DNA of 64,000 nt from Stutzerimonas stutzeri (GTDB lineage: Bacteria; Pseudomonadota; Gammaproteobacteria; Pseudomonadales; Pseudomonadaceae): NCBI RefSeq assembly GCF_013522825.1, contig NZ_JAAMQZ010000013.1, forward strand, positions 1-64,000. Reading direction: 5' to 3'. Position 1 is the stretch's first letter. Each line of letters begins with the position of its first letter. Under the pieces are notes generated by a model that ran no database searches, had not been told where the DNA came from, and saw only the letters and a program-made list of their open reading frames with translations. A program made the position numbers and the translations under genes. Shown here piece by piece: positions 2,057-36,108 of this stretch.

Positions 2057-2067
2057 CTAAAAAGTAG

Positions 2068-2137: not shown

Positions 2138-3331
2138 ATGCCTACAACCATCACATTCTTTCCCGTAGACAACGGGGATATGGCCCTCATCAAGTTTGGC
2201 GATGTGGACGCAACCACCCTACTGATCGACATAAACATTAGGCAGGACGCTGACGACCCGGATGGGGTGGCACGTGATGTCGCCAGGGATCTGCGAGACC
2301 GTTTGAAGCGGGATGAGAACGGAAGACCTTATGTCGATGCATTCTTGCTGAGCCACCCGGATCACGATCATTGCCGGGGGCTGACGCGGCATTTCTATCT
2401 GGGACCGCTGGACAAGTACCCCGATGACAAAAAGGACGATAAGGACAAGAAAATCGTGATCCGCGAGATGTGGTCGTCCCCCATCGTGTTTCGACGCGCC
2501 AGCAAGACGCACACCCTGAGTGACGATGCCAAGGCATTCAACACGGAGGCGCGTCGGCGGGTGCAGGTTAATCGCGATAAGAATTTTGCTGTTGGGAGCG
2601 GTGATCGTATTCAGATCATGGGCGAGGACATCGACGGAAAAACTGACGATCTCACTCCGATTGTGCGGAGGGTAGACACGAGCTTCTCGACGATCAATGG
2701 CAAGACTTCTGCGTACTTCTCCGCTCTTCTTCTAGCGCCCTTGGATGCCCAGGACGACGAGGAAGAGGAGCAGAATCTGATCAAAAACCAGTCAAGCGTG
2801 ATCCTGAATATCACATTGGCCGCTGACGCACAGACGCCAGATGGCGCGAAGTTTCTTACTGGTGGCGATGCTGAGGTGTTCATTTGGAACCGCCAATGGC
2901 AGCGCCACAAGGCTGAAGCCGATGTGCTTGAGTACGACATTATGCAGGCGCCGCATCATTGCTCTTGGCATTCGCTGTCCGAAGACAGCTGGTCTACCCA
3001 TCGCGAAAAGGCCAAGCTCGACGCCGACGCTCGTAAGGCGCTTTCGCAGACTCGTGACGGTGCCGTCATCGTTGCTAGTTGTATGCCTATTGCAGACGAC
3101 GACAGTGATCCCCCCTGCATCCGTGCAAAGCGTGAGTACGTCGCAATCGTGGGTGAAGCAAATGGCGAGTTTTACTGCACGGGCGAATACCCGAGCGAAA
3201 AATCTGTTGAGCCTCTCGTGTTTACCGTCACTACTCAGGGGGTGCAGCCTCCCTCGAAGAAAGAAGCTGGATCGAAGGCCGCAGCCGTGATTACCTCTGC
3301 GCGTACCCCCATGCCGCACGGCGCATCGTGA
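2138..3331 (+). CDS. ComEC-like metallo-beta-lactamase-fold hydrolase (first MBL)
   Basis: The 397-aa protein shows MBL metal-site motifs: HPDHDH at residues 73-78, GGD with Asp244, and a PHHC motif with His273-His274. This spacing resembles the ComEC/Rec2-like branch, whose members act as nucleases or phosphodiesterases. A flexible Lys/Ala/Ser-rich tail of about 30 residues ends in HGAS. I chose ATG 2138 because GGAG lies 7-10 bases upstream and the in-frame GTG at 2096 falls inside the operator and at the expected transcript start. The stop overlaps the start of the E2-E1-JAB gene (TGATG), so the two are translationally coupled. The substrate is unknown. It may be an effector, or the target of the conjugation enzyme next door. 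Confidence 0.8.
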   Translation: MPTTITFFPVDNGDMALIKFGDVDATTLLIDINIRQDADDPDGVARDVARDLRDRLKRDENGRPYVDAFLLSHPDHDHCRGLTRHFYLGPLDKYPDDKKDDKDKKIVIREMWSSPIVFRRASKTHTLSDDAKAFNTEARRRVQVNRDKNFAVGSGDRIQIMGEDIDGKTDDLTPIVRRVDTSFSTINGKTSAYFSALLLAPLDAQDDEEEEQNLIKNQSSVILNITLAADAQTPDGAKFLTGGDAEVFIWNRQWQRHKAEADVLEYDIMQAPHHCSWHSLSEDSWSTHREKAKLDADARKALSQTRDGAVIVASCMPIADDDSDPPCIRAKREYVAIVGEANGEFYCTGEYPSEKSVEPLVFTVTTQGVQPPSKKEAGSKAAAVITSARTPMPHGAS

Positions 3332-5583
3332 TGGACAGGATTGCGGATGCACTGCATCAGCTTCAGCGGCATCGAGGTCTGGTCCGCGTTGGGGAGCCAA
3401 GGGTAAGCGGTGAATTAACGCAGATCGAAGTCGATGTTGCTGTTGAGCTGCCGAGCCGGTCTCGGCGCTATGGCGTATCCGAGACCGGCGTACGTTCGGT
3501 CGAGACATGCATTCTGGTCTTCGACAATGACTGGCCGCTATCCGCGCCCAAGCCTTTCTTGCGTACGGACTTTCCGCTCAGCTTGCCGCACATCAACCCC
3601 CATCGCGAAGGCGAGTTGGTCTCACCTTGCCTGTTCGAGGGGGCATTGGACGAGCTGCTGCATCGGTTTGGTCTGGACGCGATTATCGATCAATTAATCG
3701 ATTGGCTGCACAAGGCTGCAGCTGGGGCGTTGCTGAATCTTGAGCAGGGGTGGGAGCCGACGCGTCGAGACAGTTGTCCTTCGACCATTGTATTCAGCGC
3801 CGAGAAGGTCGCGTCCGCTGCTCCCGCTGACGGCTCGATTTTGATCGTTCCCGTAAGCTATGTGACGATTGATGATGGCCTATACGCCATCATCAATACC
3901 GAACTGACCGCCCAAGTCGATCCTGTGTTCTATCAGGACGCTCACAACGACAAGCTGGGTAAATGGGGAAACGGTCATACGGCGGCCTTCATCGCACGCG
4001 CTCCAACAACCGACGGCCTTCATCATGTGATCGAACGTTATCAACCGGAGACGGTTTTCGATCTCGCGACGTTGCTTGATCGAGCTGCGGAGCTCGGCAT
4101 TGATCGCGACGCTTTGGCCAAAAGTCTGGATGGTTTTTACGGACACTCGATCCTGGATATGCAACAGGACTCGCGCGGCTGGGTGCATGGTTTGTACGCG
4201 GTTGTGATTCTGACTGTGCAAAGGCCTGTATCGCTTGTGGGCTCACCAGGGCGAAGTATTGAGGTACTGCCCTATGTGGTGCGCTATGAGCTCAACGCTC
4301 AATCGCTCCTAGAGCGAAGCGCCACGGTTCACCCAGCCTTTCATGCGCATGCATTGTCTCCCGAACTGTTGGCAAGGACGTCCGGCATTCCAGCGGCGAC
4401 CACATCTCAGCCGCTGGTCATGCTCGGCTGCGGAAGTGTAGGGTCGAAAATCGCGATGCATCTGGGGCGAGCCGGTTTCGGTTCAATGGCTTTTGTCGAC
4501 AACGAATCCATGTCGCCTCACAACGCAGCACGGCATGCACTCATTGAGCGGGCATCAGTGCTGGTCCCACCTCGAAAGGCTTCTCTGATGAAGACGGCCT
4601 TTGAGGAGCTGTCACATCTTCAATCGCGCGCGTTCGACGCCGACGCAGTGAGCCTACTAGTCGATCCAGCACAGTTCGCCACAGCTGTTCCGCAGGATGC
4701 AGCGCTTATCGTGGACGCAACAGCTTCACTTAAGGTGTTAGCCGCAGAAACACAGTCGACAGCGCTGGATCAATCACCTGCTCGGCTGGTACGGATCACG
4801 ATGTACGGTCAGGGCCGCTGTGTTGCAGTTTTGCTCGAAGGACTTGGCCGCGACGGTCGGGTTGATGACCTCACGGCATTTTTATTCGAGTGCTGCCGAT
4901 TTGTGCCGGAGCTGCGTGCGTCGATTGCCGGTGATACTTCTGAGCCGACGCGTATCTTTGTGGGTGACAACTGCCGCTCACTGACCATGCCAATGTCTGA
5001 TGCCGTCGTTTCGCGGTCTGCTTCACTGGCTGGGCTGCAACTGGAACGCTGGCTCATTGACGGGCTTCCTAAGGAAGCGACTCTTTGCGCTGGGATCTCG
5101 GATGCCGAAGGCCTCGGCATAGCATGGACTCGCACCAGCCTTGGTCCTACCACTGTGCTCGATGTGGCGGACGATGGTGGTTGGAGCATTCGGATTCTGC
5201 ACCCGGTCGCGCAAGCGATCCATGCTGATGCGCTGCGCTGGGGTGCGTTGGAAACAGGCGGTGCCTTGGTCGGCCGCATCTCGTTTGAAAATCGAACCAT
5301 CATCATTGCGGGGCTTGTTGACGCACCGCCAGACAGCGTTCGAGAGGCCGCACGCTTCGTTTTGGGCACCGATGGGCTTGTTCAAAATTTGCTTACTGCG
5401 AATTCGACCTCTTTGGGATATCTCGCCTTTATCGGCACTTGGCACAGCCACCCGAAAGGCGGTGCTCATTCGGGTATAGACCGACATACGTTGCGCGGCA
5501 TCGCCGAGGATGCTGGTGGTCTTCCTGCTGTGTCGTTGGTATGGACTCCGACAGGACTCACATGTGCGGTGGATCGCTGGTAG
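3331..5583 (+). CDS. E2-E1-JAB triple-fusion ubiquitin-like conjugation enzyme
   Basis: The 750-aa protein joins three activities in one chain. Residues about 1-150 look like a prokaryotic E2 with candidate catalytic Cys100 in SPCLFEG. Residues about 360-560 are a ThiF/E1 adenylation domain with GCGSVG (366-371) and VDNESMSPHNAARH; Cys521-Cys522 are candidate thioester cysteines. Residues about 630-750 are a JAB/JAMM protease with Glu641 and HSHP (His705, His707), followed by Ser714 and Asp717. Between E2 and E1 lies a segment of about 200 residues with no recognised fold. CBASS Cap2 (E2-E1) and Cap3 (JAB) are the nearest described relatives by architecture, but no CD-NTase is nearby. The start overlaps the upstream stop; GTG 3328 is an alternative. 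Confidence 0.85.
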   Translation: MDRIADALHQLQRHRGLVRVGEPRVSGELTQIEVDVAVELPSRSRRYGVSETGVRSVETCILVFDNDWPLSAPKPFLRTDFPLSLPHINPHREGELVSPCLFEGALDELLHRFGLDAIIDQLIDWLHKAAAGALLNLEQGWEPTRRDSCPSTIVFSAEKVASAAPADGSILIVPVSYVTIDDGLYAIINTELTAQVDPVFYQDAHNDKLGKWGNGHTAAFIARAPTTDGLHHVIERYQPETVFDLATLLDRAAELGIDRDALAKSLDGFYGHSILDMQQDSRGWVHGLYAVVILTVQRPVSLVGSPGRSIEVLPYVVRYELNAQSLLERSATVHPAFHAHALSPELLARTSGIPAATTSQPLVMLGCGSVGSKIAMHLGRAGFGSMAFVDNESMSPHNAARHALIERASVLVPPRKASLMKTAFEELSHLQSRAFDADAVSLLVDPAQFATAVPQDAALIVDATASLKVLAAETQSTALDQSPARLVRITMYGQGRCVAVLLEGLGRDGRVDDLTAFLFECCRFVPELRASIAGDTSEPTRIFVGDNCRSLTMPMSDAVVSRSASLAGLQLERWLIDGLPKEATLCAGISDAEGLGIAWTRTSLGPTTVLDVADDGGWSIRILHPVAQAIHADALRWGALETGGALVGRISFENRTIIIAGLVDAPPDSVREAARFVLGTDGLVQNLLTANSTSLGYLAFIGTWHSHPKGGAHSGIDRHTLRGIAEDAGGLPAVSLVWTPTGLTCAVDRW

Positions 5584-5628
5584 GTGGAGAACCACCGGCA
5601 CTTCGTTGGTATTAGGCAAGAGGGATGT

Positions 5629-6699
5629 ATGGCTGACTACTTTGAGATCGATTTTCTTGGCGTCGAAACAGCGAAGAGCGGGGATGCAATCACGCTGCGC
5701 TACTCGGTAAATGGCACCGAAGGCATACACGTGGTTGACGGTGGGTATCTGGATACCGGTGATCAGATCGTTGAACACCTGAAAACCTACTATGGCACAA
5801 CGGTTATCGATCACGTGATCCTCACGCATCCGGATCGCGATCACGCCAATGGGCTTCGAAAAGTCTTGGAGCAATGTACGGTCAGGAATCTCTGGATCAA
5901 TAGGCCGTGGATATATGCAGAGCAGTTGATAGATCGATTCGAGACCTATGAGTCAGTGGAAGCGCTGAGGCGGAAATTACGTTCTGTCTACGATGCCACT
6001 GCAGCGCTTGAGGGCATTGCGCTTGAGAAGGGAATCCCCATTCATGCCCCGCTTCAGGGGCAGAGCATCGGTCCCTTCACGGTGATGGCACCGACGCTAG
6101 GTCGCTACATGGACTTAATCGTGGATTCCACGAAGACACCTGAGGCTGTTGAAGAGGGTGCCATGGATAGTGCTCTGAGCAGCATTTTTCGGGCAGTTAA
6201 GGCTGCGACTTCCTACATCAAATCCTTGTGGGGCGACGAGTATTTTCCCTCTGCGCCAACTAGTCGTGAAAATGAAATGAGTGTAGTCCAGTCAGCTGTC
6301 CTGAATGGTCATCGCGTCATGCTTACTGGCGACGCCGGGCGTGAAGCGCTGCAAGAGGTGATTGACTACGCACCTTTTGCGGGACTTACGTTGCCCGGCA
6401 TTCGGTATTTCCAGGTGCCGCATCATGGCGGGCGACACAATGTTTCGACTGAGATTCTGGATCAGTTGGTTGGCCCAAGGTTGGACAGCATGCCAGACAA
6501 ACATACCTGGAATGCCATATGCAGCTCCGCTAAGGCGGATGAGGATCATCCACGGAAGTCGGTGATTCGCGCTGTACTGCACCGGGGTGGGCACTGGGCA
6601 GCAACCGAAAGCAAGAACATACGCATCGGGGCGGGTATTACCCGTGATGGTTGGGTATCAATTCCCCAAGCAGCGTATCCCGAAGAGCAAGAAAGTTGA
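5629..6699 (+). CDS. Second ComEC-like metallo-beta-lactamase-fold hydrolase
   Basis: The 356-aa protein begins ADYFEIDFLGVETAKSGDA, the usual opening strand of stand-alone ComEC-type MBL proteins. Metal-site residues are HPDRDH (67-72), GDA with Asp235, and PHHG with His265-His266. ATG 5629 is preceded by AGAGGG, whereas the GTG at 5584 directly follows the upstream stop and has no supporting sequence features. It is the last gene of the MBL / E2-E1-JAB / MBL operon, 45 bp after the fusion gene. It differs clearly from the first MBL protein and lacks the long basic tail, so the two are probably not interchangeable. Hydrolytic target unknown. Confidence 0.8.
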   Translation: MADYFEIDFLGVETAKSGDAITLRYSVNGTEGIHVVDGGYLDTGDQIVEHLKTYYGTTVIDHVILTHPDRDHANGLRKVLEQCTVRNLWINRPWIYAEQLIDRFETYESVEALRRKLRSVYDATAALEGIALEKGIPIHAPLQGQSIGPFTVMAPTLGRYMDLIVDSTKTPEAVEEGAMDSALSSIFRAVKAATSYIKSLWGDEYFPSAPTSRENEMSVVQSAVLNGHRVMLTGDAGREALQEVIDYAPFAGLTLPGIRYFQVPHHGGRHNVSTEILDQLVGPRLDSMPDKHTWNAICSSAKADEDHPRKSVIRAVLHRGGHWAATESKNIRIGAGITRDGWVSIPQAAYPEEQES

Positions 6700-6784
6700 G
6701 TCTAGTAGAGGCGCGGCCCTGCTTTTTAGGCTCCAGAGCATGGGCAGTCTATGGCCCATTTATCTGTAGTAGGTCCGAGGCTCA

Positions 6785-8110
6785 ATGAAACCACGGTCTT
6801 TCATTCGTGCGCTTGGTGACTGCTGGGACATCGTAAGTACCATCTGGTCTCGATACGAAACCCGCACCCTGACCGAGCGTGAACTGCTGCATATCGTACG
6901 CCCGTTCACTATCGGTACCGACCAGCCTGAGCAGGTTGCAGTCAAGCGCATGGTCGATATCGGCATCCTTTCGGAGTTCTCCCGCGGTGGGCAGGGCTAT
7001 TCGCTGAACCTGCAGATCGTGCCCTTTGTGCAGTTTTTGCTTGATGAGCAGAGTCTGGGCTTGATCGAGGAGATCAGCGCTAACGCCAACAGGCTCGAGG
7101 GGCACCTTGAAGAGCTGGCTGCGGCCCTGCTCAGCGGTCGGCGCACGGGTTTTTTCGCCAAGTCCCAGGAGATGCAGTCGCGCTTTCAGACGTTGCGCCG
7201 CATGGTCGAATCTAATACGCGTGCTATCTACGCGCTGGTGGACAAGGCCAAGCGCTCGGATCAGAGCCAGCCGCTGGCCGAGCGTTATGAGCAGGTGATC
7301 AAGGCCTGGGACGAGTACGTAACACCGGCACTACAGATGAAGAGCATGGGTGGGCCGTTCGATCTTTCGCTCATGCGCATCAAGCGCACTCTGCAGGAGT
7401 GGCAGCAGGACCCGGCGCTGCACCTGCTGAGTATGGATGATGCACGCTACGAAATCGACAGCATCCTGTTTCGCATGCTCGATTTTCGCGAGAGTCTCAA
7501 TCATTCGATCGAGAACATGGCGAGCCATCTGGCGCCGCTGGTGCGCCAGGCGCAAATTAATGCGCGCATTGCCCAGGGAGCTGCGCTGGGCCTTCAGGAC
7601 CTTGGCCACCACAACAGCCAATTGGCGCGCAGCGACACTCTGGCCCTGCCGCCGCGCAAGCGACGCGTCCATAAGCCTGACCAGGATTCGCTGCAGGCCT
7701 GGTGGGCGCAGCTCAAGGAGCTACAGTCGATTGCTCCCGACGCGATTCTCGTGCGCGTCCCCTCGGCCGCAGCGCTCGAGGCCCGCGAGCGGCGGGAGAT
7801 GTCCCCGCAGATGCTCTTGTGGCTGAAGAGTCAGCAGCCTGTCGAGGATGTCGTCGCGAAGCTGATGGTTCAGTACCCCAAGGCCCGGCCTGACTCGGTG
7901 TTGCGCGTGCTGACCCGCTTGACGATGGAAGATAAGACTGCGCCTTTCATCCAACGCCACGACGACATGCAGCACTACCGATTCGAGGACCTCGAAATCC
8001 GTATGAACCGGCGCTCATACAATGCCGAACCGGCCCCGCGGCGATTGGCCCCGATCGCCTTCTACAGCCATTACGAACCCTTGCCTACCCGGGAACCCGC
8101 CGATGGATGA
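6785..8110 (+). CDS. mksF: MksF (JetA) kleisin-type subunit of a Wadjet/Mks condensin
   Basis: This 441-aa protein is the first gene of an MksF-MksE-MksB-MksG operon. It has a winged-helix start (about 1-90) with LTERELLHIVRPFT and VDIGILSEFSRGGQGYSLN. Long helical middle segments follow. In this family the kleisin bridges the SMC heads. Family members load with MksB and MksE and restrict closed circular plasmids. ATG 6785 has GAGG five bases upstream. It overlaps mksE by 8 bp. Identification rests on gene order, sizes and the MksB and MksG partners, as this subunit diverges quickly. Confidence 0.8.
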   Translation: MKPRSFIRALGDCWDIVSTIWSRYETRTLTERELLHIVRPFTIGTDQPEQVAVKRMVDIGILSEFSRGGQGYSLNLQIVPFVQFLLDEQSLGLIEEISANANRLEGHLEELAAALLSGRRTGFFAKSQEMQSRFQTLRRMVESNTRAIYALVDKAKRSDQSQPLAERYEQVIKAWDEYVTPALQMKSMGGPFDLSLMRIKRTLQEWQQDPALHLLSMDDARYEIDSILFRMLDFRESLNHSIENMASHLAPLVRQAQINARIAQGAALGLQDLGHHNSQLARSDTLALPPRKRRVHKPDQDSLQAWWAQLKELQSIAPDAILVRVPSAAALEARERREMSPQMLLWLKSQQPVEDVVAKLMVQYPKARPDSVLRVLTRLTMEDKTAPFIQRHDDMQHYRFEDLEIRMNRRSYNAEPAPRRLAPIAFYSHYEPLPTREPADG

Positions 8111-8852
8111 TCTGCCTCAGGACGAGTCTGCCGAGGATCTCGAGCTGTCGCTCGAAGATCGAGTGCGCGATGCCAGACACTATACCCAGCGCCTCGAGCG
8201 AGAGCTCCGCCTGTTCTCCCGGATTGTCGAGGCGCTCGAGGCGGGGCGCTTTATCAGCAGCACCGACCGGATCAAGGAATATCGCGAGCTGTCGCGCTTT
8301 CAGGACACCTACGAGGTGTTGTTGCGCATGATGGGGCATGAGCTTCGACATCACACCACAGGGTTTTACTATCTGCAGCCGCGCGAGATGAGTCAGGCCC
8401 AGCTGCCCCAGCGCGAGCGCATGGCAGCCGCGGCGATCTTCTCCCTGATCGAGCACCTGTGCGACAAGGGATTGCCGATCGAATCGATGATCACCCATGA
8501 AGAACCCATCCTCCTCGACGACCTGGGAGCGATGTTCAGCCAGTGCCACGACCGGCTCACCCGTCTTGGACTGGGCAGTGTGGAGTCATTCATCGACAAC
8601 GGCATTCGCCGGCTGGTCGACGTCGGGGTGATGAATGAACGCCGTCTCTCCCAAGACAAGGTCGCCTACACCTTGGGCCTGCCGGCCTACTTCTACCTCG
8701 ACATCTGCCGGAACCTGGCTGAACAGCATCAGCAACAGCTCGAGGCCCAAGAGCGCGGGGAAGGCTATTCCTACAGCGACCGCTCGGTGGACGAGCTGGC
8801 AGACGACTTTCTGAATACCCAGCCCAACGAAGACGACGAGACCCCGGAGTAA
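8103..8852 (+). CDS. mksE: MksE (JetB) subunit of a Wadjet/Mks condensin
   Basis: The 249-aa, largely helical and acidic protein has a winged-helix-like C-terminal half (GIRRLVDVGVMNERRLSQ, followed by YTLGLPAYFYLDICRNLAE). MksE binds the kleisin MksF as a KITE-type dimer in known complexes. I chose ATG 8103, inside the 3' end of mksF, over the in-frame 8022, which would extend far into mksF. It ends 2 bp before mksB. Function is assigned by position between mksF and mksB and by size. Confidence 0.8.
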   Translation: MDDLPQDESAEDLELSLEDRVRDARHYTQRLERELRLFSRIVEALEAGRFISSTDRIKEYRELSRFQDTYEVLLRMMGHELRHHTTGFYYLQPREMSQAQLPQRERMAAAAIFSLIEHLCDKGLPIESMITHEEPILLDDLGAMFSQCHDRLTRLGLGSVESFIDNGIRRLVDVGVMNERRLSQDKVAYTLGLPAYFYLDICRNLAEQHQQQLEAQERGEGYSYSDRSVDELADDFLNTQPNEDDETPE

Positions 8853-8854
8853 CG

Positions 8855-11779
8855 ATGCGCAGCAAAGCACTCAAGACCCGCTGGGGCGTGCGCCATTACG
8901 CCATGGTCAACTCCGGCAACCACATCATGTCGGTTTTTCCCATGGACGGGCCGCTGAGCATCTGCGGACACAACAACTTGGGTAAGACCCAGGCGCTGCA
9001 AAGCATGCAGTTTCTCTTCTTCACCCACCTTGCACACATGCACTTCGGCGCCCACCAGGCCAACACCAGCCGCGCATTCTTCTTTCCCAGCGACCACAGC
9101 TACCTACTGATGGAGGTGCTGACCCCCGACGGCGTGTTCATCGTCGGTGCTCACGGCAAGGGACCTACCGCCGGCAACGAATATGAACTGTTCGTGGCTA
9201 AAGGTGAGCTGGACATGGGTGATTTCGTCGACCCGATCAACCGCATACGCCCCTACAAGGAGCTGTTCCGGCACTGGTACGAACGGGGCATCGAGGTGCG
9301 CAACCTGACCCGAGAACAGATGCGCCAAATGCTCTACGGAGAGAGCGGGCGGGTCAAAGGCGGCGACTGGGACGTGACCATAGTGCCGCTGGCGAACGCC
9401 AACGAAAGGCGCTACCAGGTGTTCCGCCAGATCTATCGCAACCTGCTCACTCAGCAGCTACTCAAGAGCCGCGAGATCAAGGAGCTCATCCTCAACGTCT
9501 TCAGTGAAAAGCTGAGCAATGCCAATTTGAATTTCCTCGAGGTCCGCGAGCGCGCGTTCCAGCGCTTTCGTCTTGCCGAGCGGGAAGTCGAGCGACTTGC
9601 GTACCGCCGCGAGGACATCCTCGCCCTCGGCAAGGAATACGACGAATACACCGAACTTTCGCAAGAAGGCGGCTGGTTGGCGCGCGAGCTGCGGGTAAAC
9701 CTGACCCTGGCGGTGGAGCGGGCACCGCTATGCATCGAGGAGCTCAACGCGCTTCACAAGGAAGAAATCGAAAAGCGCGCCAAGCTCAACGAACAGCTTA
9801 ATAGCCGCATGCAAGAACGCGATCGAGCGGTCGAGCAGCGCATCACCTTGGCCGGCCGGCTGACCCGCCTCGACGAGTTACGTGAGCGCAATGCGATGAC
9901 CTGCCGCGAGACGGTCGAGAAATCGATTCGCACACTGGCAGCCCAGCACGCCACGCTCAGCGATCAGTTGCGCCAGGCTGACATCTACGATGTGGCAACC
10001 GTCAGTAGCAGACTGCGTCACACTGAACATGAAATTCGCAAGCTCAACAAGCGACTGGAGCAGGTCCGCAATGGCGACGGACTGTTGGATACCCAAGGCT
10101 TTGTCGACGCGGAAAAGGCCGAGCTGTCGCGGCTGCTTCGCAGCGACATGTTCAGCCTTGAGGCCGCAGCACTGACTGAAATCCACCCGGGCAGTTTCAA
10201 CAATTGGGTACGCACCCAACTCATGTCGAAGGAAGGGCTGCTCAATTTACAGGGTTTCGAGTTAGACCTGACCGATCTGCCTCCAATGGATTTTCATAGC
10301 GATGATCCGGCGCAGCTGCAACAGTCAATCGCCATGTACCAAGAGGACCTGGCCAAGCTTCAGGGGCAACTCGAGGTTGCCCAGAACCAGACGCTCAAGC
10401 GTACCGAATTGGAGTCGCTGGCAAAGCAGCTGGGCAACCAGCAGGGCTACCTGCAGGAACTGACCGAGCTCGAGGCCTTGGAAACCACCGAGACTGTTGA
10501 TCGCCAAGTGCTCGAGGGTGTGATGATGTGTCTCGCCCAGATCGACGAGTGGCTGCAAGGGCACCAGGAGCGGATCGAGGGTGCCACCCAGACCATCAAC
10601 GTTATCGAGCAGAAGCTCAACGATGCCATCGAGCAGGCACGCCAGCTCAAGGACGTGCAGCAGCACCGCCAGATCCAGAGCAGTCCCTTCATTCCCGCTG
10701 AAGGGCCGAACGAGGACTTCGAGCGCGATCTCACCGGGTACAACTTCGGTGGCACGTTGAATCGGCTGGAGTGGATCAGCAACGCGCTCGACCGCATAGC
10801 CCTGACCATGAAGAACTACCAGCACTCGATCGTTGGCGACCTACCTGATCTTGCCCGACATGCGAATCTGAGCGATCTGGTGCAGCATGCACGTGAGCGG
10901 TTGGAAACGCTGCCGCAGATGCGTGAGATGCTCAAGCGCTACCATCAGGAGGGCATTGCCCAGCTCTCGGGAGCTCTGCGCGATCTTTCCGAGAACTACG
11001 TGACGCTGGAACACGAGATATCGCTATTCAACCGCCGGATCAATGCGCGCAAAGTCTCGAACCTTCGTGGTTTCAGGTTAGATCTGAAGAGGAACGAGCC
11101 GATACTGGAAGCCATTAATATCCTGTCCTCATATATCGCCCAGGCTGACGAAAACGAGACCGACCTGTTCGGCCAGCAAGACGGGGGCGCATCCCAGGCC
11201 GGGCTGGTGCGTGCTATGGATCGGCTGTCTCGTCTGGTTGAAGATGGTCGTGACGGTACCCTCGAGCTCGGGGACTTATTCGACATCGGATTCACCGTGG
11301 AAGAGGTCAACGGCAAGGTCGTTGTCTGCAACGCACTCGACGAGCTGGCTTCTAATGGCTCGACCATGACGCTCAAACCGTTGTTGTATTTCTCTCTGAT
11401 TCGCCACCTGACCGACCGCGGCGCCCGGGTCGAACCGTTCCTGCCGTTCTACTTGGACGAGATCGCTTCGGTTGATCCGAACAACCAGCGCACTATCTTG
11501 GCATTCAGCGAGAACCTTGGTTTCACCCCTGTGTTTGCATCCGTCGACCCGACTACCACGGTGCGCTATTGCATCAATATCAGTGAGTGTATCAACGCCG
11601 ATAATCGTATCTATGTGACCCAGGCGGACTGGCAGCACTTCGATCACCACGAAGACGTCAAGCTGGGGCAGGCTCCGCAGCGAAGTGAGAGAGACGAGAA
11701 GTCCGAGGTAGACGTCGAGCAGTTCAGTGATAGCTTGCAGGTGGCGACCGCGAAGGCTGACACGGTAGCTCAGTCATGA
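8855..11779 (+). CDS. mksB: MksB (JetC) SMC-like ATPase
   Basis: The 974-aa protein is an SMC-family ATPase. The N-terminal head has Walker A GHNNLGKT (residues 38-45). Two long coiled-coil arms (about 220-400 and 480-830) surround a hinge. The C-terminal head has Walker B PFYLDE with Asp868-Glu869 and a D-loop (SVDPNNQ). The length matches Pseudomonas-type MksB rather than the longer Bacillus JetC. With MksF and MksE it would extrude DNA loops and, with MksG, cut small circles. The start lies 2 bp after mksE; the end overlaps mksG by 4 bp (ATGA). The C-terminal tail is acidic and low-complexity. Confidence 0.9.
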   Translation: MRSKALKTRWGVRHYAMVNSGNHIMSVFPMDGPLSICGHNNLGKTQALQSMQFLFFTHLAHMHFGAHQANTSRAFFFPSDHSYLLMEVLTPDGVFIVGAHGKGPTAGNEYELFVAKGELDMGDFVDPINRIRPYKELFRHWYERGIEVRNLTREQMRQMLYGESGRVKGGDWDVTIVPLANANERRYQVFRQIYRNLLTQQLLKSREIKELILNVFSEKLSNANLNFLEVRERAFQRFRLAEREVERLAYRREDILALGKEYDEYTELSQEGGWLARELRVNLTLAVERAPLCIEELNALHKEEIEKRAKLNEQLNSRMQERDRAVEQRITLAGRLTRLDELRERNAMTCRETVEKSIRTLAAQHATLSDQLRQADIYDVATVSSRLRHTEHEIRKLNKRLEQVRNGDGLLDTQGFVDAEKAELSRLLRSDMFSLEAAALTEIHPGSFNNWVRTQLMSKEGLLNLQGFELDLTDLPPMDFHSDDPAQLQQSIAMYQEDLAKLQGQLEVAQNQTLKRTELESLAKQLGNQQGYLQELTELEALETTETVDRQVLEGVMMCLAQIDEWLQGHQERIEGATQTINVIEQKLNDAIEQARQLKDVQQHRQIQSSPFIPAEGPNEDFERDLTGYNFGGTLNRLEWISNALDRIALTMKNYQHSIVGDLPDLARHANLSDLVQHARERLETLPQMREMLKRYHQEGIAQLSGALRDLSENYVTLEHEISLFNRRINARKVSNLRGFRLDLKRNEPILEAINILSSYIAQADENETDLFGQQDGGASQAGLVRAMDRLSRLVEDGRDGTLELGDLFDIGFTVEEVNGKVVVCNALDELASNGSTMTLKPLLYFSLIRHLTDRGARVEPFLPFYLDEIASVDPNNQRTILAFSENLGFTPVFASVDPTTTVRYCINISECINADNRIYVTQADWQHFDHHEDVKLGQAPQRSERDEKSEVDVEQFSDSLQVATAKADTVAQS

Positions 11780-12672
11780 GTCGGTCGAGAGAGCTGGAAA
11801 TACTACAGCGGTTGCGCAAAGGGCCTGTCCCTTTGCGCAGTTGGCCGAAGGCGCTTGAGGCTGTGCTCGATCAGCTCAGAGTCTCCGGCATCGTCACGGT
11901 GGGCCGTGTGCCCGGACGAATATCGCCGCATGTGATTGTGCAGCATGCCGATTCTCTCGGGCAGCGTATTGCCCGGTTGCAGCCGCCCAAGGATTTGGAA
12001 AGCTGTTCGGTGCGCGGCTTGAACATTATCCACGGCGGCTCGAGCAAGCGCGGGGGGCGACTGCCCTCGCTCATGATCAGTTGTAGCGCTGGCGAGGCCG
12101 TCAGCTGGGAGGATGCACAGGGTAATATCCTGCAGTGGGAATCGCCTTCACCGGCGTTTCTGAAGTTGCTATGGCACGACGAGCGCAGACCCGACGCGAC
12201 CCCCAAGCCAACCGGCCATGTGGTGCTAGTGGAAAACCGTGACACCCTGCTGCATCTGCCGACACGGCTGCCGGCAGTATTGAGCGGCGCGCTGGTGGCT
12301 CATTACGAAGGTTGGCTATCTGATCGGCTGCTGGCGCTGTTGGTGTCTTGGGAGGGCGCGAAGATCTGGCTGCTGCCTGACCTTGATCCAGTTGGTCTAG
12401 CCAATGCCCGGCGCATAGCCGAAGCCTTGCCCTGTGCGGGTATGCTGGTACCACTTCTGAGTCCCGAAATAGTCGATCAGTATGGAGACGAAACCATCTG
12501 GCGGGAGAGCTTTGCTCTGGTCCCGGCGCTGCTTCCTTGGCTAGAGCAGCAGGACCCACCCCTGCGGGATCTGTTCGCCCTGCTCAAATGCAAGGGTAGA
12601 GGTGTTGAGCAGGAGTATTGCCTGGCAGTGCCCTCGACCGTACTTGAACCCATAGAACTAAGAAGGGGCTGA
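11776..12672 (+). CDS. mksG: MksG (JetD) toprim-like nuclease subunit
   Basis: The 298-aa protein resembles JetD/DUF2220 proteins, the nuclease of Wadjet. Toprim-type motifs are visible: VENRDTLLHLP with Glu153, and DLDPVGL with Asp202 and Asp204. The N-terminus (about 1-75) looks like a winged helix (KALEAVLDQLRVSGIVTVGRV). It is shorter than many JetD proteins, so the N-terminal arm domain is probably reduced. It overlaps the mksB stop as ATGA. Its presence points to a plasmid-restricting Wadjet rather than a chromosomal MksBEF without nuclease. A strong terminator follows at 12733. Confidence 0.8.
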   Translation: MSRSRELEILQRLRKGPVPLRSWPKALEAVLDQLRVSGIVTVGRVPGRISPHVIVQHADSLGQRIARLQPPKDLESCSVRGLNIIHGGSSKRGGRLPSLMISCSAGEAVSWEDAQGNILQWESPSPAFLKLLWHDERRPDATPKPTGHVVLVENRDTLLHLPTRLPAVLSGALVAHYEGWLSDRLLALLVSWEGAKIWLLPDLDPVGLANARRIAEALPCAGMLVPLLSPEIVDQYGDETIWRESFALVPALLPWLEQQDPPLRDLFALLKCKGRGVEQEYCLAVPSTVLEPIELRRG

Positions 12673-30249: not shown

Positions 30250-30333
30250 GCAGGCCTCCACGCCTTTCTGAGACTGCCTCCATCCGGCTGCGCTGGTGTG
30301 GCCGGGCTGTCCTGAACGATGGAGGCTCACCCC

Positions 30334-30630
30334 ATGCGACCCGCTCCCGTGCGACCTGCTGCCGCCCACGCCAAGCCCCTGCAACCCGCCGCCACTGCCC
30401 AGCCGCAGCGCTACCTGACCAACGACGAGGCGGCCACCTACCTGCGCCTGTCGCCGCGCACGCTGGAGAAGCAGCGCGTGATCGGCGGCGGCCCGCGCTT
30501 TCGCAAGTTCGGCCGGCGCGTCATGTACGCCGTCGCCGATCTCGATGCCTGGGCCGACCAGCACAGCTTCGAGGCCACCTCCGATCCCGAGTACGCCGAG
30601 CAGCACTCGGCCGACAGCCGTGCGCGCTGA
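30334..30630 (+). CDS. MerR-like helix-turn-helix (excisionase-type) protein
   Basis: The 98-aa protein has a Pro/Ala-rich N-terminus and an HTH_17 domain (about 33-80) with YLTNDEAATYLRLSPRTLEKQRVIGGG and MYAVADLDAWADQ. HTH_17 proteins of this type are excisionase-like or plasmid regulators. ATG 30334 follows ATGGAGG by 8 bases. It is immediately upstream of repA, probably co-transcribed. Confidence 0.85.
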   Translation: MRPAPVRPAAAHAKPLQPAATAQPQRYLTNDEAATYLRLSPRTLEKQRVIGGGPRFRKFGRRVMYAVADLDAWADQHSFEATSDPEYAEQHSADSRAR

Positions 30631-30656: not shown

Positions 30657-31490
30657 ATGTCCAGCTCGGCGCCGGAGCGGGAACAGCTCGACCTGTTCCG
30701 TGCCTTGCCGGGCGACATGGCGCCGCGCGACAGCCAAGACCTGATGGCCTACCCGTTCTTCTCGTTGGCGAAGTCTCGGCGCACCGCGCCGATCGATTTC
30801 CAGTCCGGCGGCGTCACCGTACGTGTGGAGGGCACGCGGGAACATGGCATCGCCACGATCTGGGATGCCGACGTGCTGATCTGGGCGGCCAGCCAGATCG
30901 TCGCGGCGCGCGACGCGGGCCTGCACCCGTCGCGTCTGATGCGCGCCACGCCCTACGAGATCCTGCGCTTCATCGGGCGCGGAGTGTCGCTGCGCGACTA
31001 CCAGCGCCTCAAGGCCGCCCTGGATCGCCTGCAATCGACCACGGTGGCCACCTCTATCCGCGAGACCAGCGGCCGGCGCCTGCACCGTTTCTCCTGGATC
31101 AACGAGTGGAAGGAGCTGGCCGATGCCTGCGGCACGCCGCTGGGCATCGAGCTGATCCTGCCGGACTGGTTCTACGCGGGCGTGCTGGACGCCGCCCTGG
31201 TGCTGACCATCGACCCGGCGTATTTCCGGCTCACCGGCGGCATCGAGCGCTGGCTGTACCGCCTGGTGCGCAAGCATGGCGGCAAGCAGCCGGACGGCTG
31301 GCAGTTCGACTTCCGCCATCTGCACCGCAAGTCGGGCAGCACGGCCAGGCTTTGCGACTTCGCCTGCGACCTGCGTGCCCTGGCGGCGCGGCAGTCGTTG
31401 CCCGGCTATGTGCTCGGCATCGAGCGCATACCGGAGGTCAACGTGGAGCTGCTGACGTTCCGGCCCGTGTCGCCCACGGCACGGGGATAA
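30657..31490 (+). CDS. repA: RepA-like replication initiator
   Basis: The 277-aa protein is of the replication-initiator RepA type, with SQDLMAYPFFSLAKSRR, a central ATPYEILRFIGRGVSLRDYQRLKAALDRLQST (about 103-134) and WINEWKEL. Such initiators bind iterons and open the origin. Directly downstream are three 17-bp direct repeats and an AT-rich track, which supports origin function. ATG 30657 is preceded by a weak purine stretch. It is followed by parA after 241 bp, the typical order in Tn4371-type ICEs. Confidence 0.85.
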   Translation: MSSSAPEREQLDLFRALPGDMAPRDSQDLMAYPFFSLAKSRRTAPIDFQSGGVTVRVEGTREHGIATIWDADVLIWAASQIVAARDAGLHPSRLMRATPYEILRFIGRGVSLRDYQRLKAALDRLQSTTVATSIRETSGRRLHRFSWINEWKELADACGTPLGIELILPDWFYAGVLDAALVLTIDPAYFRLTGGIERWLYRLVRKHGGKQPDGWQFDFRHLHRKSGSTARLCDFACDLRALAARQSLPGYVLGIERIPEVNVELLTFRPVSPTARG

Positions 31491-31514
31491 GCGCGGTAAA
31501 ACCTGTGAATGGGC

Positions 31515-31578
31515 TCGTGCTATCAGGCGTACCGGGTATCGTGCTATCAGGCGTATCACTATCGTGCTATCGGGCGTA
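31515..31578. repeat. Three iterons of a putative oriV
   Basis: Direct repeats TCGTGCTATCAGGCGTA at 31515-31531 and 31539-31555, and TCGTGCTATCGGGCGTA at 31562-31578, are spaced 24 and 23 bp apart, about two helical turns. They lie 25 bp after repA and before parA. This is the layout of iteron-regulated plasmid origins. RepA binding is inferred. Confidence 0.75.
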
Positions 31579-31617
31579 CGAAATCCTCTGCAGGCCAGAG
31601 CCTGCGCGGGCTCCAGC

Positions 31618-31660
31618 CTCTCTTAACTTCTCTAACTTAAAAGCTCTAACTTTTTGTAGG
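31618..31660. other. AT-rich stretch, candidate origin unwinding element
   Basis: A run with three TAACTT repeats (within 31622-31629, 31632-31638 and 31646-31652) stands out in GC-rich surroundings, 40 bp beyond the last iteron. It may be the DNA-unwinding element of oriV, or a promoter for parA. Confidence 0.5.
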
Positions 31661-31731
31661 GGCGCGCCGTTTCGGTGGACAACCACGAAACGGCACGGCC
31701 AGGCCGGCTTTCCAGCAGGGAGGGCCGCGCC

Positions 31732-32370
31732 ATGATCATCGCCTTGCTCAACCAGAAAGGCGGTGTCGGCAAGACCACGCTCGCCACCCACATCGCCGGC
31801 GAACTGGCGCTGCGCGGTGCGCAGGTCGTCCTGCTGGATGCCGACCCACAGGGTTCATCGCTGGACTGGACGCAACGGCGTGCCCAGCAGGGTTTGCCCA
31901 GGTTGTTCAGCGCCGTGGGCCTCGCCCGCGAAACCCTGCATCAGGAGGCGCCCGAACTGGCGCGTCGCGCCGATCACGTGATCATCGACGGACCACCGCG
32001 CATCGCCGCCCTGGCGCGCTCCGCGCTGCTGGCGGCCGAGCGCGTGCTGATCCCGGTGCAGCCCAGCCCCTACGACCTGTGGGCCAGCGCCGAGATGGTC
32101 GCGCTGATCCGCGAGGCGCAGGTATTCCGGCCGCAGCTAGCTGCGGCCTTTGTCATCAACCGGCGCGTTAGCACCACCATCATCGGTCGCGAGGCGCGCC
32201 AGGCATTGGCCGACCAACCACTGCCGGCGCTGCGCGCCGAGGTGCGCCAGCGCATCGTCTTCGCCGATAGCGTGGCCGCCGGGCGACTCGCTCGTGAGAC
32301 GGCGCCGGACAGCGCCGCCGCGCGGGAGATCACTGCGCTGGTCGACGAACTGCTGCGGTGGACGGCATGA
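31732..32370 (+). CDS. parA: ParA-family ATPase
   Basis: The 212-aa protein is a small (type Ib-like) ParA. It starts MIIALLNQKGGVGKTT with a deviant Walker A (KGGVGKT, residues 9-15). It has LLDADPQGSSLDW (Walker A' / switch I) and VIIDGPPRI (Walker B). It lacks an N-terminal HTH. It would position the excised ICE or transfer machinery with ParB. ATG 31732 follows GGGAGG; earlier in-frame codons are not supported. The stop overlaps the next gene (ATGA). Confidence 0.9.
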   Translation: MIIALLNQKGGVGKTTLATHIAGELALRGAQVVLLDADPQGSSLDWTQRRAQQGLPRLFSAVGLARETLHQEAPELARRADHVIIDGPPRIAALARSALLAAERVLIPVQPSPYDLWASAEMVALIREAQVFRPQLAAAFVINRRVSTTIIGREARQALADQPLPALRAEVRQRIVFADSVAAGRLARETAPDSAAAREITALVDELLRWTA

Positions 32371-32618
32371 CCCGCGAGCGCGGCAAACGCACGGCCATCG
32401 GCGCCCGCCCGCCGGCGAATCCGCACGCCGAGGCGTGGGTTCGCCAGGGGGACGCCGGCGGCCTGCAGAAAGGTGACCTCTACACCGCACGCCTGACCCT
32501 CGACATCACGCCCGCCATGCGCGCCCGCATCAAGGTCTCGGCGTTCACCCAGGGGGTAACGGTCGCCGATCTGTTGCGCGCACTGCTGGAGCGCGAGTTC
32601 CCGGAGAAATCCCCATGA
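32367..32618 (+). CDS. Small ribbon-helix-helix-type protein downstream of ParA
   Basis: The 83-aa protein has a C-terminal segment TARLTLDITPAMRARIKVSAFTQGVTVADLLRALLE (about 43-78), which fits a ribbon-helix-helix. The N-terminus is basic and flexible. In small ParA systems the ParA partner is such an RHH protein, so this may be the centromere-binding partner. It overlaps parA by 4 bp and the next gene by 4 bp. Confidence 0.75.
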   Translation: MTRERGKRTAIGARPPANPHAEAWVRQGDAGGLQKGDLYTARLTLDITPAMRARIKVSAFTQGVTVADLLRALLEREFPEKSP

Positions 32619-33148
32619 ACGCCCAGCTTACGAAGGCCACGGCTGCGCCGCCGCCATCGCTCGCAGTGCTCGCCGGCCAGACTGACGCCGCGCAGTTGAC
32701 CCGCGTGTCGCTCGCCTATGTGGAGCAACGCATCAAGCTCTACCTGCGTTTTGGCGAGCCGGCGTGTATCACCCGCCTGGACCAATGGCGGCGTGTCGCG
32801 GTGTTCCTGCCGGGTGCCGTCTTTTGCCGCATCCGCTGGCAGGCCAACGACTACGGCACGATCCGCTGGCAACTTATGGTGATGCAGGCCTGCACGCCGC
32901 TGGACACCGTGCAGCGCATCCCCGGCGTGCTGCCAGGCGCGCGCCTGCTGCTGCATACGGAAGGCGATAACACGGTGCGCGCCGTGCTCGAGCGCATCGA
33001 CGCCATCGAGGCGCTGGGCATCGCCCCCGTCGCCGCATCTCCGGCGTACTGGCGCACGCTGGGCAACCGGCTCGCGGCACGCTCGCCGCTGCCCGGCTAC
33101 ACCGTCGAGCGGCACGCCGCCTGGCTCGCCGGGAGGTCATGGTCATGA
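32615..33148 (+). CDS. DUF2840-family protein
   Basis: The 177-aa protein is a DUF2840 member, recognisable by VEQRIKLYLRFGEPA, VFLPGAVFCRIRWQANDYGT and the C-terminal RLAARSPLPGYTVERHAAWL. The role is unknown; it consistently precedes traF in Tn4371-like elements. Its start and end overlap both neighbours, so the operon parA - RHH - DUF2840 - traF is tightly coupled. Confidence 0.85.
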   Translation: MNAQLTKATAAPPPSLAVLAGQTDAAQLTRVSLAYVEQRIKLYLRFGEPACITRLDQWRRVAVFLPGAVFCRIRWQANDYGTIRWQLMVMQACTPLDTVQRIPGVLPGARLLLHTEGDNTVRAVLERIDAIEALGIAPVAASPAYWRTLGNRLAARSPLPGYTVERHAAWLAGRSWS

Positions 33149-33732
33149 CCATCGTTTCCACGACAAGCCCCGCACCGCGTCCTCGCTCGCGCCTGCGCGC
33201 TCGTATCGCCCTTGCGGGGCTGTCCGCCGTTGGCCTCGCTGCGCTGGCCTGGGCGTCCTTCGTGCAGCCGTTGCCGCGCCTGATCTACAATCCGTCCGAC
33301 AGCGTTCCGGTCGGTTGGTATCGCGTCGAACCGCTTCAGCCCCGGGCCGGCTCGCTGCCTCGTCCGTTGTCCGTGGGCAGCATCGTCTTGGTCCGGTTGC
33401 CTGCCGACGCTACCGCACTCGCTGCGCAGCGCGGCTACCTGCCGGCGCACATCCCTCTGCTCAAGCGCGTGGGCGCGGTTGCGCCGCAGCACGCCTGCAT
33501 CGTCGCCGACCAGGTGCGCATCAACGGCGCGCCGGTGGCCACTGTTTTGCCTGCCGACCGCCTGGATCGGCCGCTGCCATCCTGGCTGCAATGCCGACCG
33601 TTGGCCGAGGACGAACTGTTCCTGCTGAGTGTGACCAACCCGGCGTCGTTCGACAGCCGCTACTTCGGGCCGGTCAGCGCGTCCGCCGTGATCGGCGTCG
33701 CGCGCCCGATCTGGTCGGAGACACGTCCATGA
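33145..33732 (+). CDS. traF: TraF-type S26 signal peptidase
   Basis: The 195-aa protein has an N-terminal TM helix (about 20-40). The S26 catalytic Ser53 lies in NPSDSVPVGWYR and the Lys in LLKRVGA. In RP4, TraF matures the pilin TrbC. Here trbC lies at 53519 and has the expected signal region. ATG 33145 has GGGAGG at good spacing, whereas 33139 is too close. It overlaps the end of the DUF2840 gene by 4 bp. Confidence 0.85.
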   Translation: MTIVSTTSPAPRPRSRLRARIALAGLSAVGLAALAWASFVQPLPRLIYNPSDSVPVGWYRVEPLQPRAGSLPRPLSVGSIVLVRLPADATALAAQRGYLPAHIPLLKRVGAVAPQHACIVADQVRINGAPVATVLPADRLDRPLPSWLQCRPLAEDELFLLSVTNPASFDSRYFGPVSASAVIGVARPIWSETRP

Positions 33733-34131
33733 TGGTCGCCAATTCGCTGCTGCTGCCGTGTCGTCGTACGTGCAGCGCGGGCGCATCCGCACCACGCTTC
33801 GCGCAACATCCGGCGCAGCTGTCCTACGTGCAGATGACTTGCCTCGAACGCGTCCGGCCTGCGGCCATTGGTGCATTCGCAGACAGGCTGGCTGCTGGTG
33901 CAGCAGAGCCGCCTGGTCGCCGCGGCCAGGGGGGCAGGGCAGAGCAAAAGCGGAAGGCAAGACAAAAGGGGGCGGCACCTGCTCGCCCGCAACACCAGTC
34001 TGCACGTGGGGGAGGAGCGGCACGGCGCTGCTTCGCCGCCGTGCTGTGTGCGACGCGCAACACGCGCCGATGCCGGCATACCCGTGTGCTTCACGCGCCA
34101 GGACACGCCCTGGCTCGACGAGGGAACAGCC
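33733..34131. other. Non-coding stretch before the relaxase gene, candidate oriT
   Basis: About 400 bp separate traF from the relaxase. Frames here have no family match and low-complexity composition. A hairpin GCACGGCG (34020-34027) / CGCCGTGC (34037-34044) lies 90 bp upstream of the relaxase start. Origins of transfer often sit next to the relaxase gene, so this is the best oriT candidate. No nick-site consensus was recognised. Confidence 0.4.
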
Positions 34132-36108
34132 ATGACTGACCGTCGTGACGACGATTTCCGCATTCGGCCCAACGCCCCGAAGAACCGGGGCAAGGGCTTT
34201 GTCTCCAAGGTGCTCAAGCAGGTCGGCAAGGCCGGTGGCAAGTCGGCTGTGCGGCGCCCTGCACTGGCCAGTGGCAAGGGACAGCACGCCGGTCAGCGGC
34301 CCGGCTCGCGCCTGGGACGCGGGCACACGGCGGCGCGCTTCGCGGGCGCCTCACTTACGCCATTCACGCGCCGGGTGACCATCAAGACCCTGCTGGTCAA
34401 CCAGCGCCAGGCCAGCCCACGGTCGCTGGCCAAGCACCTGCGCTACATCGAACGCGACGGCGCCGGACGCGACGGCGAACCGGGTCGCGCTTATGGGCCG
34501 CAGGCGGACGAGGCCGACCTCGGTGCATTCAGGGAGCGCTGCCAGGACGACCGGCACCATTTCCGCTTCATCGTCGCGCCAGAGGATGGTGCCGAGCTGG
34601 ACGACCTGCGCACCTACACCCGGCATCTGATGGGGCGCATGGAGGCCGACCTGGGCACGCGGCTGGACTGGGTGGCGGTGGATCACTGGAACACCGACAA
34701 CCCGCATACCCACATCGTCCTGCGCGGGCGCGACGACACCGGCAAGGATCTCATCATCGCTGGCGATTACATCGCCCACGGCTTCCGCCACCGGGCCGCT
34801 GAACTTGCCACCGAGTGGCTGGGGCCACGCACCGAACTGGAGATCCAGCAGACCCTGCAGCGCGAGGTGGAGCAGGAGCGATGGACGAGCCTGGATCGCA
34901 CACTGAAACGTGAGGCTGGCGACGATGGCCAGATACATGTCGAACGCCTCAACGAGCCCCGCCTGCAACGCCAGCGCCTGCTGCTGATCGGCCGCCTGCA
35001 ACACTTGCAGCGCATGGGCCTGGCCGACGAGACACAGCCCGGCACCTGGGCCGTCCAAGCGGACGCGGAAAAGACCTTGCGCGCCCTGGGCGAGCGGGGC
35101 GACATCATCCGCACGATGCAGCGGGCCATGAGCGGGCAGCCGCGTGAGCTGGCGGTGTTCGAGCCGGGACAGGAGGGGCGTACCGTGATCGGCCGGGTGA
35201 CCGCCAAAGGGCTGGCCGACGAGCTGCGTGACCGGGGGTATCTGGTCATTGACGGAGTGGACGGCAAGGCCCATTACGTCGCGCTCAACGCCCGCGACGA
35301 ACTGGCGAACTATCCCACAGGATCGGTGGTGGAGGTACGTGGCTCGGCTGAGATACGCGCGGCCGACCGCACCATCGTCGCGCTGGCGAGCGATGGCCTG
35401 TATCGCACCGACCATCACCTGGCGGTTGCTCAAGGTCAGGCAAAGGCTGGCCGCGATCCGCAGGAGGTCGTGGCGACTCACGTCCGCCGCCTGGAAGCTC
35501 TGCGTCGTGCAGGTATCGTGGAGCGTGTGGCTGAAGGGCTGTGGAAGGTGCCGGACGATTTGCCCGAGCGTGGCCGCCAGTACGACGCGCAGCGCCTAGG
35601 GGGAGTTGCTGTGGAGCTGAAATCGCACCTGCCGATTGAACGGCAAGCCCGCGTAATTGGCGCCACCTGGCTCGACCAGCAACTGATCGGCGCTGGGCGA
35701 GGGCTGGGTGACTTCGGATTTGCTGGTGAGGTGAGGCAGGCCATGCAGCAGCGTGCCGATTTCCTGGTTGAGCAGGGGCTGGCCGAGAGGCAAGGTCGGC
35801 GTGTGATCCTGGCGCGTAACCTGCTGGCGACGTTGCGCAATCGAGAGCTGGCCCAGGTCGCTCGGGAGATCGCCGCCGAAACCGGGTTAGAGCACCGACC
35901 AATGCTTGATGGCCAGCGCGTGACAGGCATCTACCGGCGCAGCGTCATGCTCGCCAATGGACGTTATGCCGTGCTCGATGATGGTAAGGGATTCAGCCTG
36001 GTGCCGTGGAAGCCCGTTATCGCGCTGCGGTTGGGGCAACAGCTGACCGCGACACTCCGCGATGGAAGGGCGTCATGGGAGATTGGACGTGGACCGTCTA
36101 TTGGATAA
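34132..36108 (+). CDS. traI: Relaxase with DUF3363 (VirD2/TraI-type)
   Basis: The 658-aa protein is a mobilisation relaxase of the DUF3363 type. It has a catalytic Tyr105 candidate in LRYIERDG and a metal triad in DHWNTDNPHTHIVLRG (His185, His192, His194). The C-terminal half is DUF3363. It would nick oriT and lead the single strand to TraG. ATG 34132 has AGGGAA nearby; upstream frames are not supported. It ends cargo-free at 36108 and is followed by a minus-strand terminator, which marks a cargo insertion slot. Confidence 0.9.
   Translation: MTDRRDDDFRIRPNAPKNRGKGFVSKVLKQVGKAGGKSAVRRPALASGKGQHAGQRPGSRLGRGHTAARFAGASLTPFTRRVTIKTLLVNQRQASPRSLAKHLRYIERDGAGRDGEPGRAYGPQADEADLGAFRERCQDDRHHFRFIVAPEDGAELDDLRTYTRHLMGRMEADLGTRLDWVAVDHWNTDNPHTHIVLRGRDDTGKDLIIAGDYIAHGFRHRAAELATEWLGPRTELEIQQTLQREVEQERWTSLDRTLKREAGDDGQIHVERLNEPRLQRQRLLLIGRLQHLQRMGLADETQPGTWAVQADAEKTLRALGERGDIIRTMQRAMSGQPRELAVFEPGQEGRTVIGRVTAKGLADELRDRGYLVIDGVDGKAHYVALNARDELANYPTGSVVEVRGSAEIRAADRTIVALASDGLYRTDHHLAVAQGQAKAGRDPQEVVATHVRRLEALRRAGIVERVAEGLWKVPDDLPERGRQYDAQRLGGVAVELKSHLPIERQARVIGATWLDQQLIGAGRGLGDFGFAGEVRQAMQQRADFLVEQGLAERQGRRVILARNLLATLRNRELAQVAREIAAETGLEHRPMLDGQRVTGIYRRSVMLANGRYAVLDDGKGFSLVPWKPVIALRLGQQLTATLRDGRASWEIGRGPSIG

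Follow-up and report, generated by a model that had tools for sequence, protein, structure and literature searches.

A PF10134-type repA gene and a putative iteron-type replication origin in a Tn4371-like integrative and conjugative element

Introduction

Among Proteobacteria, genes for degradation and resistance are spread by Tn4371-like integrative and conjugative elements (ICEs); in the open-licence literature we found no test of whether these elements replicate after excision. In SGI1, an iteron-containing oriV downstream of rep is described as required for replication of the excised form (PMC7433901). The SXT/R391 ICE is reported to replicate as a circle and to have a plasmid-like partition system; the portions of that paper used here hold nothing on a Tn4371 oriV (PMC4489591). 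For Tn4371, it was proposed in 2009 that RepA, described as related to pVS1 RepA, may be involved in replication (PMC2789088, whose main text has no occurrence of oriV). A Rep_3-superfamily initiator together with DUF2840 has been reported in Mesorhizobium ICEs, except the symbiosis ICEs and one more, and also on Tn4371, and switching between ICE and plasmid modes was suggested (PMC8627217). The main text of that paper is without the term oriV and, as it names Tn4371 and the open-licence papers searched include none on Tn4371 with the word iteron, it is without that word too. Indeed, we found no paper in the open-licence literature that joins Tn4371 with iterons or with autonomous replication and, judged by title, none on the co-evolution of recognition helices and iterons that deals with Tn4371-like ICEs.

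Here we describe the DNA around repA of a Tn4371-like ICE in a 64,000-nucleotide stretch of Stutzerimonas stutzeri (contig NZ_JAAMQZ010000013.1, positions 1 to 64,000; hereafter the window). The gap between repA and parA holds three conserved direct repeats, whose last bases change in step with a predicted DNA-reading helix of RepA.

Results

The repA gene (30657-31490, + strand) is intact and encodes a 277-aa PF10134 (RPA) replication initiator that matches the whole profile with E 1.9e-87; PF10134 is the sole Pfam match of the protein at E ≤ 0.001. The surrounding genes follow the order of the Tn4371-like ICE core, repA-parA-(RHH)-DUF2840-traF-relaxase ... traG-trb. Upstream of repA lies a small HTH_17 or excisionase-like gene (30319-30630, +; PF12728, E 3.4e-10; TIGR01764 excise, E 3.5e-4, below cut-off). 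Downstream, also on the + strand, are parA, encoding a partition ATPase (31732-32370; NF041546, E 6.7e-79), a gene in the parB position for a small ribbon-helix-helix (RHH)-like protein (32367-32618; PF23807, E 5.4e-4, below cut-off), and the ICE-core genes for DUF2840, a TraF peptidase and an RlxS-like relaxase (32615-36108; PF11000, E 7.3e-60; PF10502, E 1.9e-27), the relaxase matching NF041267 with E 4.6e-200, yet below the curated cut-off. TraG, TrbB-like (T2SSE), TrbE-like, CagX/TrbG and TrbI genes lie further downstream. These core genes match the Tn4371-like ICE core as given in PMC2789088. The contig has no match to a PF00589 tyrosine integrase, which in a Tn4371-like ICE belongs at the left end. 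Window base 1 is also the first base of the contig, so that this end of the ICE may be on a different one. Positions 10-123, where the contig begins, carry five copies of a 23-bp tandem repeat. A putative defence cluster at 2096-12672 encodes a 411-aa protein that matches LmuA/RTasMBL weakly, a fusion of Prok-E2_A, ThiF and JAB (3328-5583), a protein matching PDC-M48B (5584-6699, E 3.1e-153) and another three proteins that match nothing.

Downstream of repA, three 17-mers (TCGTGCTATCRGGCGTA; pattern TCGTGCTATC[AG]GGCGTA) start 24 and 23 bp apart on the + strand, the first of them 24 bp past the repA stop. The first two, at 31515-31531 and 31539-31555, both read TCGTGCTATCAGGCGTA, and the third, at 31562-31578, reads TCGTGCTATCGGGCGTA. 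Nowhere else in the 64 kb does either strand match the 17-mer with three or fewer mismatches; in 100 dinucleotide shuffles such matches averaged 0.24 and never exceeded 2. When the 241-bp gap was simulated 300 times with a Markov model, 289 simulated gaps had one copy, 11 had two and none had three, the number in the real gap. Chance is excluded as the source of the repeats. Iteron-type theta origins carry at least three direct repeats of about 17-22 bp near two helical turns apart, as is the case here; three is a small number for such an array, and we count this against reading the locus as an origin.

Beyond the repeats, a track at 31620-31659 (+) is 70% AT, versus 40% in the gap before it and 26% after it. 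It carries TAACTT at 31624, 31633 and 31647, the only occurrences on the + strand of the window, and is the likely DNA-unwinding element; in iteron-type theta origins such an AT-rich element often has short repeats, as this one does. A DnaA box is a further element of such origins; its matches in the window are poor. A weak DnaA-box-like site at 31504-31512 (- strand) agrees with 6/9 positions of the consensus, and the conserved GTGGACAAC (31675-31683) with 7/9. The relatives outscore shuffles, the first 30 nt past the repA stop reaching a DnaA-box-like score of 7 in 22/79 and of 8 in 4/79. GTGGACAAC, in which 7/9 columns are at least 95% conserved among 81 aligned gaps (see below), is surrounded by an inverted repeat (31660-31700) just 5' of parA. 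This inverted repeat could be a candidate DnaA site, parA operator or partition site.

We compared the locus with the best 80 of 591 related genome loci (RepA 85-90% identical). Three repeats at exactly 24/23 spacing are present in 79 of them, the exception (L076) having two repeats with a spacing of 28; three copies of TAACW are found in 69/80. The gaps were aligned in 81 rows, comprising 79 of the 80 loci, the window and a second copy from the same host (one locus, L059, was dropped as its parA start was mis-found). Mean column conservation is 0.95-0.99 in the 13-bp core of the repeats, TCGTGCTATCRGG, versus 0.68-0.78 in the spacers; it is 0.76-0.77 in the last four bases of the repeats and 0.86 in the AT-rich track. 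At least 95% conservation is reached by 13/13, 11/13 and 12/13 core columns of the first, second and third repeat, respectively, and by 18/40 columns of the track. Between elements, the last four repeat bases vary and the first thirteen do not. The sequence-only reading had described three near-identical 17-mers at 24/23 spacing after repA and, before parA, an AT-rich stretch with three TAACTT; both descriptions were accurate, and the array also withstood the check set beforehand, that the repeats be conserved in related elements.

The triple also recurs in wider scans, in 9/398 genomes of the phylum (no mismatch) and 43/298 genomes of the family (at most one mismatch), the host's own genome counted in each; the reversed-pattern control gave 0 matches in both. 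Two scans of viral contigs returned 1 and 2 relatives, which are two distinct loci. The host's second PF10134 gene, with its own array at the same spacing, is located on a different contig, with an integrase match about 13 kb away; its repeats end in AGTA.

We also looked at 13 PF10134 plasmid records, hand-picked from 60 rows among 1172 matches (RepA 29-88% identical). Arrays of at least three copies lie downstream of repA in six (L146, L148, L149, L151, L152 and L155) and upstream in two (L153 and L157), while no array flanks repA in the other five (L145, L147, L150, L154 and L156). When L145, whose array lies inside the frame, is set aside, no array was found on either side in 4/13, one of them (L147) with a RepA 61% identical. 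In L145 (Indioceanicola plasmid NZ_CP030129.1), the annotated repA frame (1974-3191) spans three repeats up to parA. Seven records were checked for PF10134 and RepC. A single PF10134 gene without RepC was found in four (L149, L151, L152 and L155; 222, 30, 19 and 57 kb); PF10134 is present twice in L145 and is accompanied by a RepC gene in L146 and L147. The Bradyrhizobium plasmid L146 has nearly the same repeat as the ICE array, at 24/23 spacing; as it also has RepC, the PF10134 module is not necessarily what replicates this plasmid. The repeats of L149, L151, L152 and L155 are of other sequence and are spaced 21-24 bp (once 43) apart, and in the first three of these repA is preceded by the annotated partition genes and followed by the array.

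The AF2 model of RepA is weak (mean pLDDT 58, pTM 0.43). A Foldseek search with it retrieved RctB domains 2-3 (E 3.8e-7) and RepE54 (4e-3). VIA-align with the same low-confidence model gave Z 13.3 over 230 residues for RctB, 8.9 for pPS10 RepA WH1, about 8 for RepE54 and 6.9 for pi-iteron, where Z below 8 is, by the program's own guidance, untrustworthy by itself. Nothing was found by phmmer with RepA against PDB sequences at E < 0.1. The structural matches of this model suggest, with low confidence, that the RepA fold resembles that of initiators, including the iteron-binding RepE and pi, and the double winged-helix fold of Rep_3 type that belongs next to an iteron-type theta origin is predicted with the same low confidence.

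The last four bases sort the repeats into classes, and they are identical across all three repeats in 103/132 loci (counting redundant rows), a pattern suggestive of ongoing selection or homogenisation. To relate class to RepA, the 132 loci were reduced to 107 non-redundant aligned rows, of which 102 fall into six classes; left out of this table were L076 (two repeats), L110, L123 and L133 (no repA), L147 and L149-L157 (no triple of the kind seen here) and L148 (the repA frame stops early, the array being present). Residue 237 is Cys in 50/50 CGTG and 5/5 CGTA rows, Tyr in 20/21 AGTA rows (Phe in the remaining one) and Ala in 9/9 CAAC rows. The correspondence is imperfect in CGCA (Leu in nine rows, Phe in two, Tyr in two and Lys in one) and in GACC (Phe in two and Tyr in one). 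Residues 229, 231, 232 and 233 likewise follow repeat class, and the five columns of RepA with the highest mutual information are 237, 229, 232, 231 and 233. In the AF2 model, residues 229-238 form a turn and the first half of helix 232-245, with two strands after it in a winged-helix-like arrangement. On the basis of the mutual-information ranking and the predicted helix, we assign codons 229-238 (31341-31370, +) to the turn and first half of the putative recognition helix of a C-terminal winged helix.

The neighbouring proteins served as a control. Across the 64 non-redundant loci, out of 80, that have all four genes (three classes), repeat class (1.25 bits) shares 1.19 bits with RepA residue 237, and no column of ParA, the RHH protein or DUF2840 shares more than 0.15, 0.12 or 0.19 bits, respectively. 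Since the class information is in RepA and not in these three proteins, the covariation argues that the repeats are very probably RepA sites and not a partition centromere.

The helix changes with class even among close relatives. RepA pairs that are less than 3% different outside the helix differ at 4.62/10 helix positions when their classes differ (8 pairs) versus 0.08/10 when they do not (201 pairs), and pairs that are 3-6% different at 4.91 (108 pairs) versus 0.39 (227 pairs); the pairs share sequences and hence are not independent. Among those eight class-different pairs, L121 differs from L122 and from L124 at only one or two helix positions; all three loci have mixed arrays. DNA between helix and repeats diverges by 0.160 in class-different pairs (132) versus 0.076 in same-class pairs (496), and DNA past the repeats by 0.277 versus 0.119. 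As this flanking DNA is also more diverged, part of the correspondence may come from exchange of the entire region as a linked unit. Helix and array, which are matched in either case, may move together by recombination. A quick RepA tree built without residues 222-242 has 17 class changes versus 43-51 in 100 shuffles. It contains two independent CGTG/AGTA pairs on well-supported branches and eight on all branches; residue 237 changed alike in both well-supported pairs, which are too few for a sign test.

Three related elements (L162, L163 and L164, in genomes G674, G508 and G431) have lost repA and kept the last repA codons, the array, the AT track and parA. L162 carries about 0.4 kb in place of a stretch of about 1.4 kb of L165 that includes repA. 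One base of a repeat core is changed in 2/3 of these elements. Genome-wide, G674 has two PF10134 genes for three arrays, G508 one for two and G431 none for one. Replication by RepA is thus either unneeded for persistence in the chromosome or could be supplied in trans, and these elements are possibly satellites or relics.

Eight genomes of the phylum and family scans have at least two arrays. The classes differ in G000, G379, G356 and G541; two AGTA arrays share G513, and two CGTG arrays and one AGTA array share G196; G674 and G508 each have a same-class or partly same-class pair that includes a repA-less element. In these raw counts, strict class exclusion between co-resident elements is not supported, as same-class pairs coexist. 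The two AGTA modules of G513, at 3710399 and 3967655 of one chromosome, lie about 257 kb apart in opposite orientation and are identical over the matched repeat stretch. In addition, 113 plasmid records, for example OW967598.1, contain at least 80% of the repA-oriV stretch. Among the plasmid matches listed, most share the same 83.6% copy, on clinical and environmental plasmids of 100-500 kb. This copy is apparently a carried ICE fragment and could act as a passenger incompatibility locus.

Discussion

We consider it very likely that repA and the adjoining 31491-31731 constitute a PF10134-type iteron (theta) replication origin within a Tn4371-like ICE, at which RepA would bind the repeats and the excised circle would copy itself. 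The call of an iteron-type origin made by the sequence-only reading is thereby strongly supported, by near-universal conservation of the array, the predicted initiator fold, the covariation of helix and repeat, and the downstream arrays in 6/13 plasmids. Its further inference from the layout, that the excised ICE replicates autonomously, claims more than the data support, and three related elements have lost repA while keeping the array. It knew of no iterons described for this family, which agrees with our searches of the open-licence literature, but RepA had already been assigned a possible replication role (PMC2789088).

The change of the repeats in step with the DNA-reading helix of RepA suggests that the element can copy itself after leaving the chromosome, and the excised circle is probably able to replicate. 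A two-winged-helix RepA would bind at each of the three 17-bp repeats. The class-specific last four bases would be read by the recognition helix near its C-terminus (about residues 229-238), and the TCGTGCTATC part, which hardly varies, presumably by the rest of the protein. Once bound, RepA would open the AT-rich TAACTT track, probably together with DnaA, and the replisome would be loaded. The excised circle might then copy itself in the donor, the recipient or both, probably at low copy number, and ParA may help to keep it.

Three other explanations can be considered. RepA may have ceased to be an initiator and now act as a regulator, the repeats being its operators for parA or the transfer operon. 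This would suit an array immediately upstream of parA and the retention of both array and parA in the three elements without repA. However, a plain operator has no need of the AT-rich track with three TAACTT, which is also conserved, the predicted fold of RepA is that of an initiator, and plasmids show the same array position; we regard this explanation as improbable. More doubtful still is a relic plasmid replicon, in which RepA still binds although the origin has fallen silent, and the sequences are alike through recent shared ancestry and recombination of whole blocks. Elements without repA do exist, the C-terminal codons and the flanks diverge together with the helix, and the Mesorhizobium symbiosis ICEs are described as being without the Rep and DUF2840 genes (PMC8627217). 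Against this, conservation is far higher in the repeat cores than in the spacers, and the three repeats of an array mostly agree in the last four bases. Finally, type Ib partition centromeres (parC/parS) are often direct repeats upstream of parA. The array does sit between repA and parA, with an RHH-like gene after parA, but a centromere bound by that ParB-like protein, with RepA incidental, is very improbable and was rejected by the covariation control, where repeat class is matched to RepA residue 237 (1.19 of 1.25 bits) and not to the RHH protein or ParA (0.12 and 0.15 bits), and by the gene order of plasmids L149, L151 and L152.

With an origin as the preferred reading, the correspondence between RepA and the repeats might amount to a readable code, in which residues 229, 231-233 and 237 co-vary with the last four iteron bases and have switched repeatedly among near-identical RepAs. 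Tn4371-like ICEs would then form replication-specificity groups, co-resident ICEs and the 113 plasmid records would interact by class, and the repA-less elements would be satellites. We advance this wider proposal tentatively, as a nearly balanced question. If such groups are real, class would decide which co-resident excised ICEs and plasmid copies replicate, titrate or exclude one another, and elements that keep the array without repA would be replicated in trans by a class-matched RepA. The definition of a 1.1-kb repA-oriV makes replication after excision directly testable, and the correspondence of helix and iteron offers ready-made swap experiments and sequence-based prediction of which elements interfere.

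An iteron oriV downstream of rep is a known kind of origin; its member in a Tn4371-like ICE and the specificity code appear to be undescribed in the open-licence literature. For SXT/R391, transient replication is described as relying on oriT with the relaxase TraI instead of a plasmid-type oriV (PMC4489591). The replication/stability cluster of Tn4371-like elements has repA, parA and parB in the same order as here, and its RepA is related in the same paper to that of pVS1 (PMC2789088). The PF10134 plasmid replicons share the initiator but are plasmids, not ICEs. SGI1 differs from the present ICE in iteron sequence, in needing an IncC helper and in its Rep, which apparently has a RepA_C domain, as PMC7433901 implies, whereas the RepA described here is PF10134 only and not of the RepA_C family that marks an SGI1-type rep-oriV. 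Yet SGI1 and the ICE are both mobile elements of the chromosome in which 17-bp iterons (four in SGI1) directly follow a rep gene, and for SGI1 a putative DnaA box is also described, along with three short repeats in an AT-rich region (PMC7433901). SGI1 is the closest functional model for the putative ICE origin, which would place another ICE family, like SGI1, at the boundary between ICEs and plasmids.
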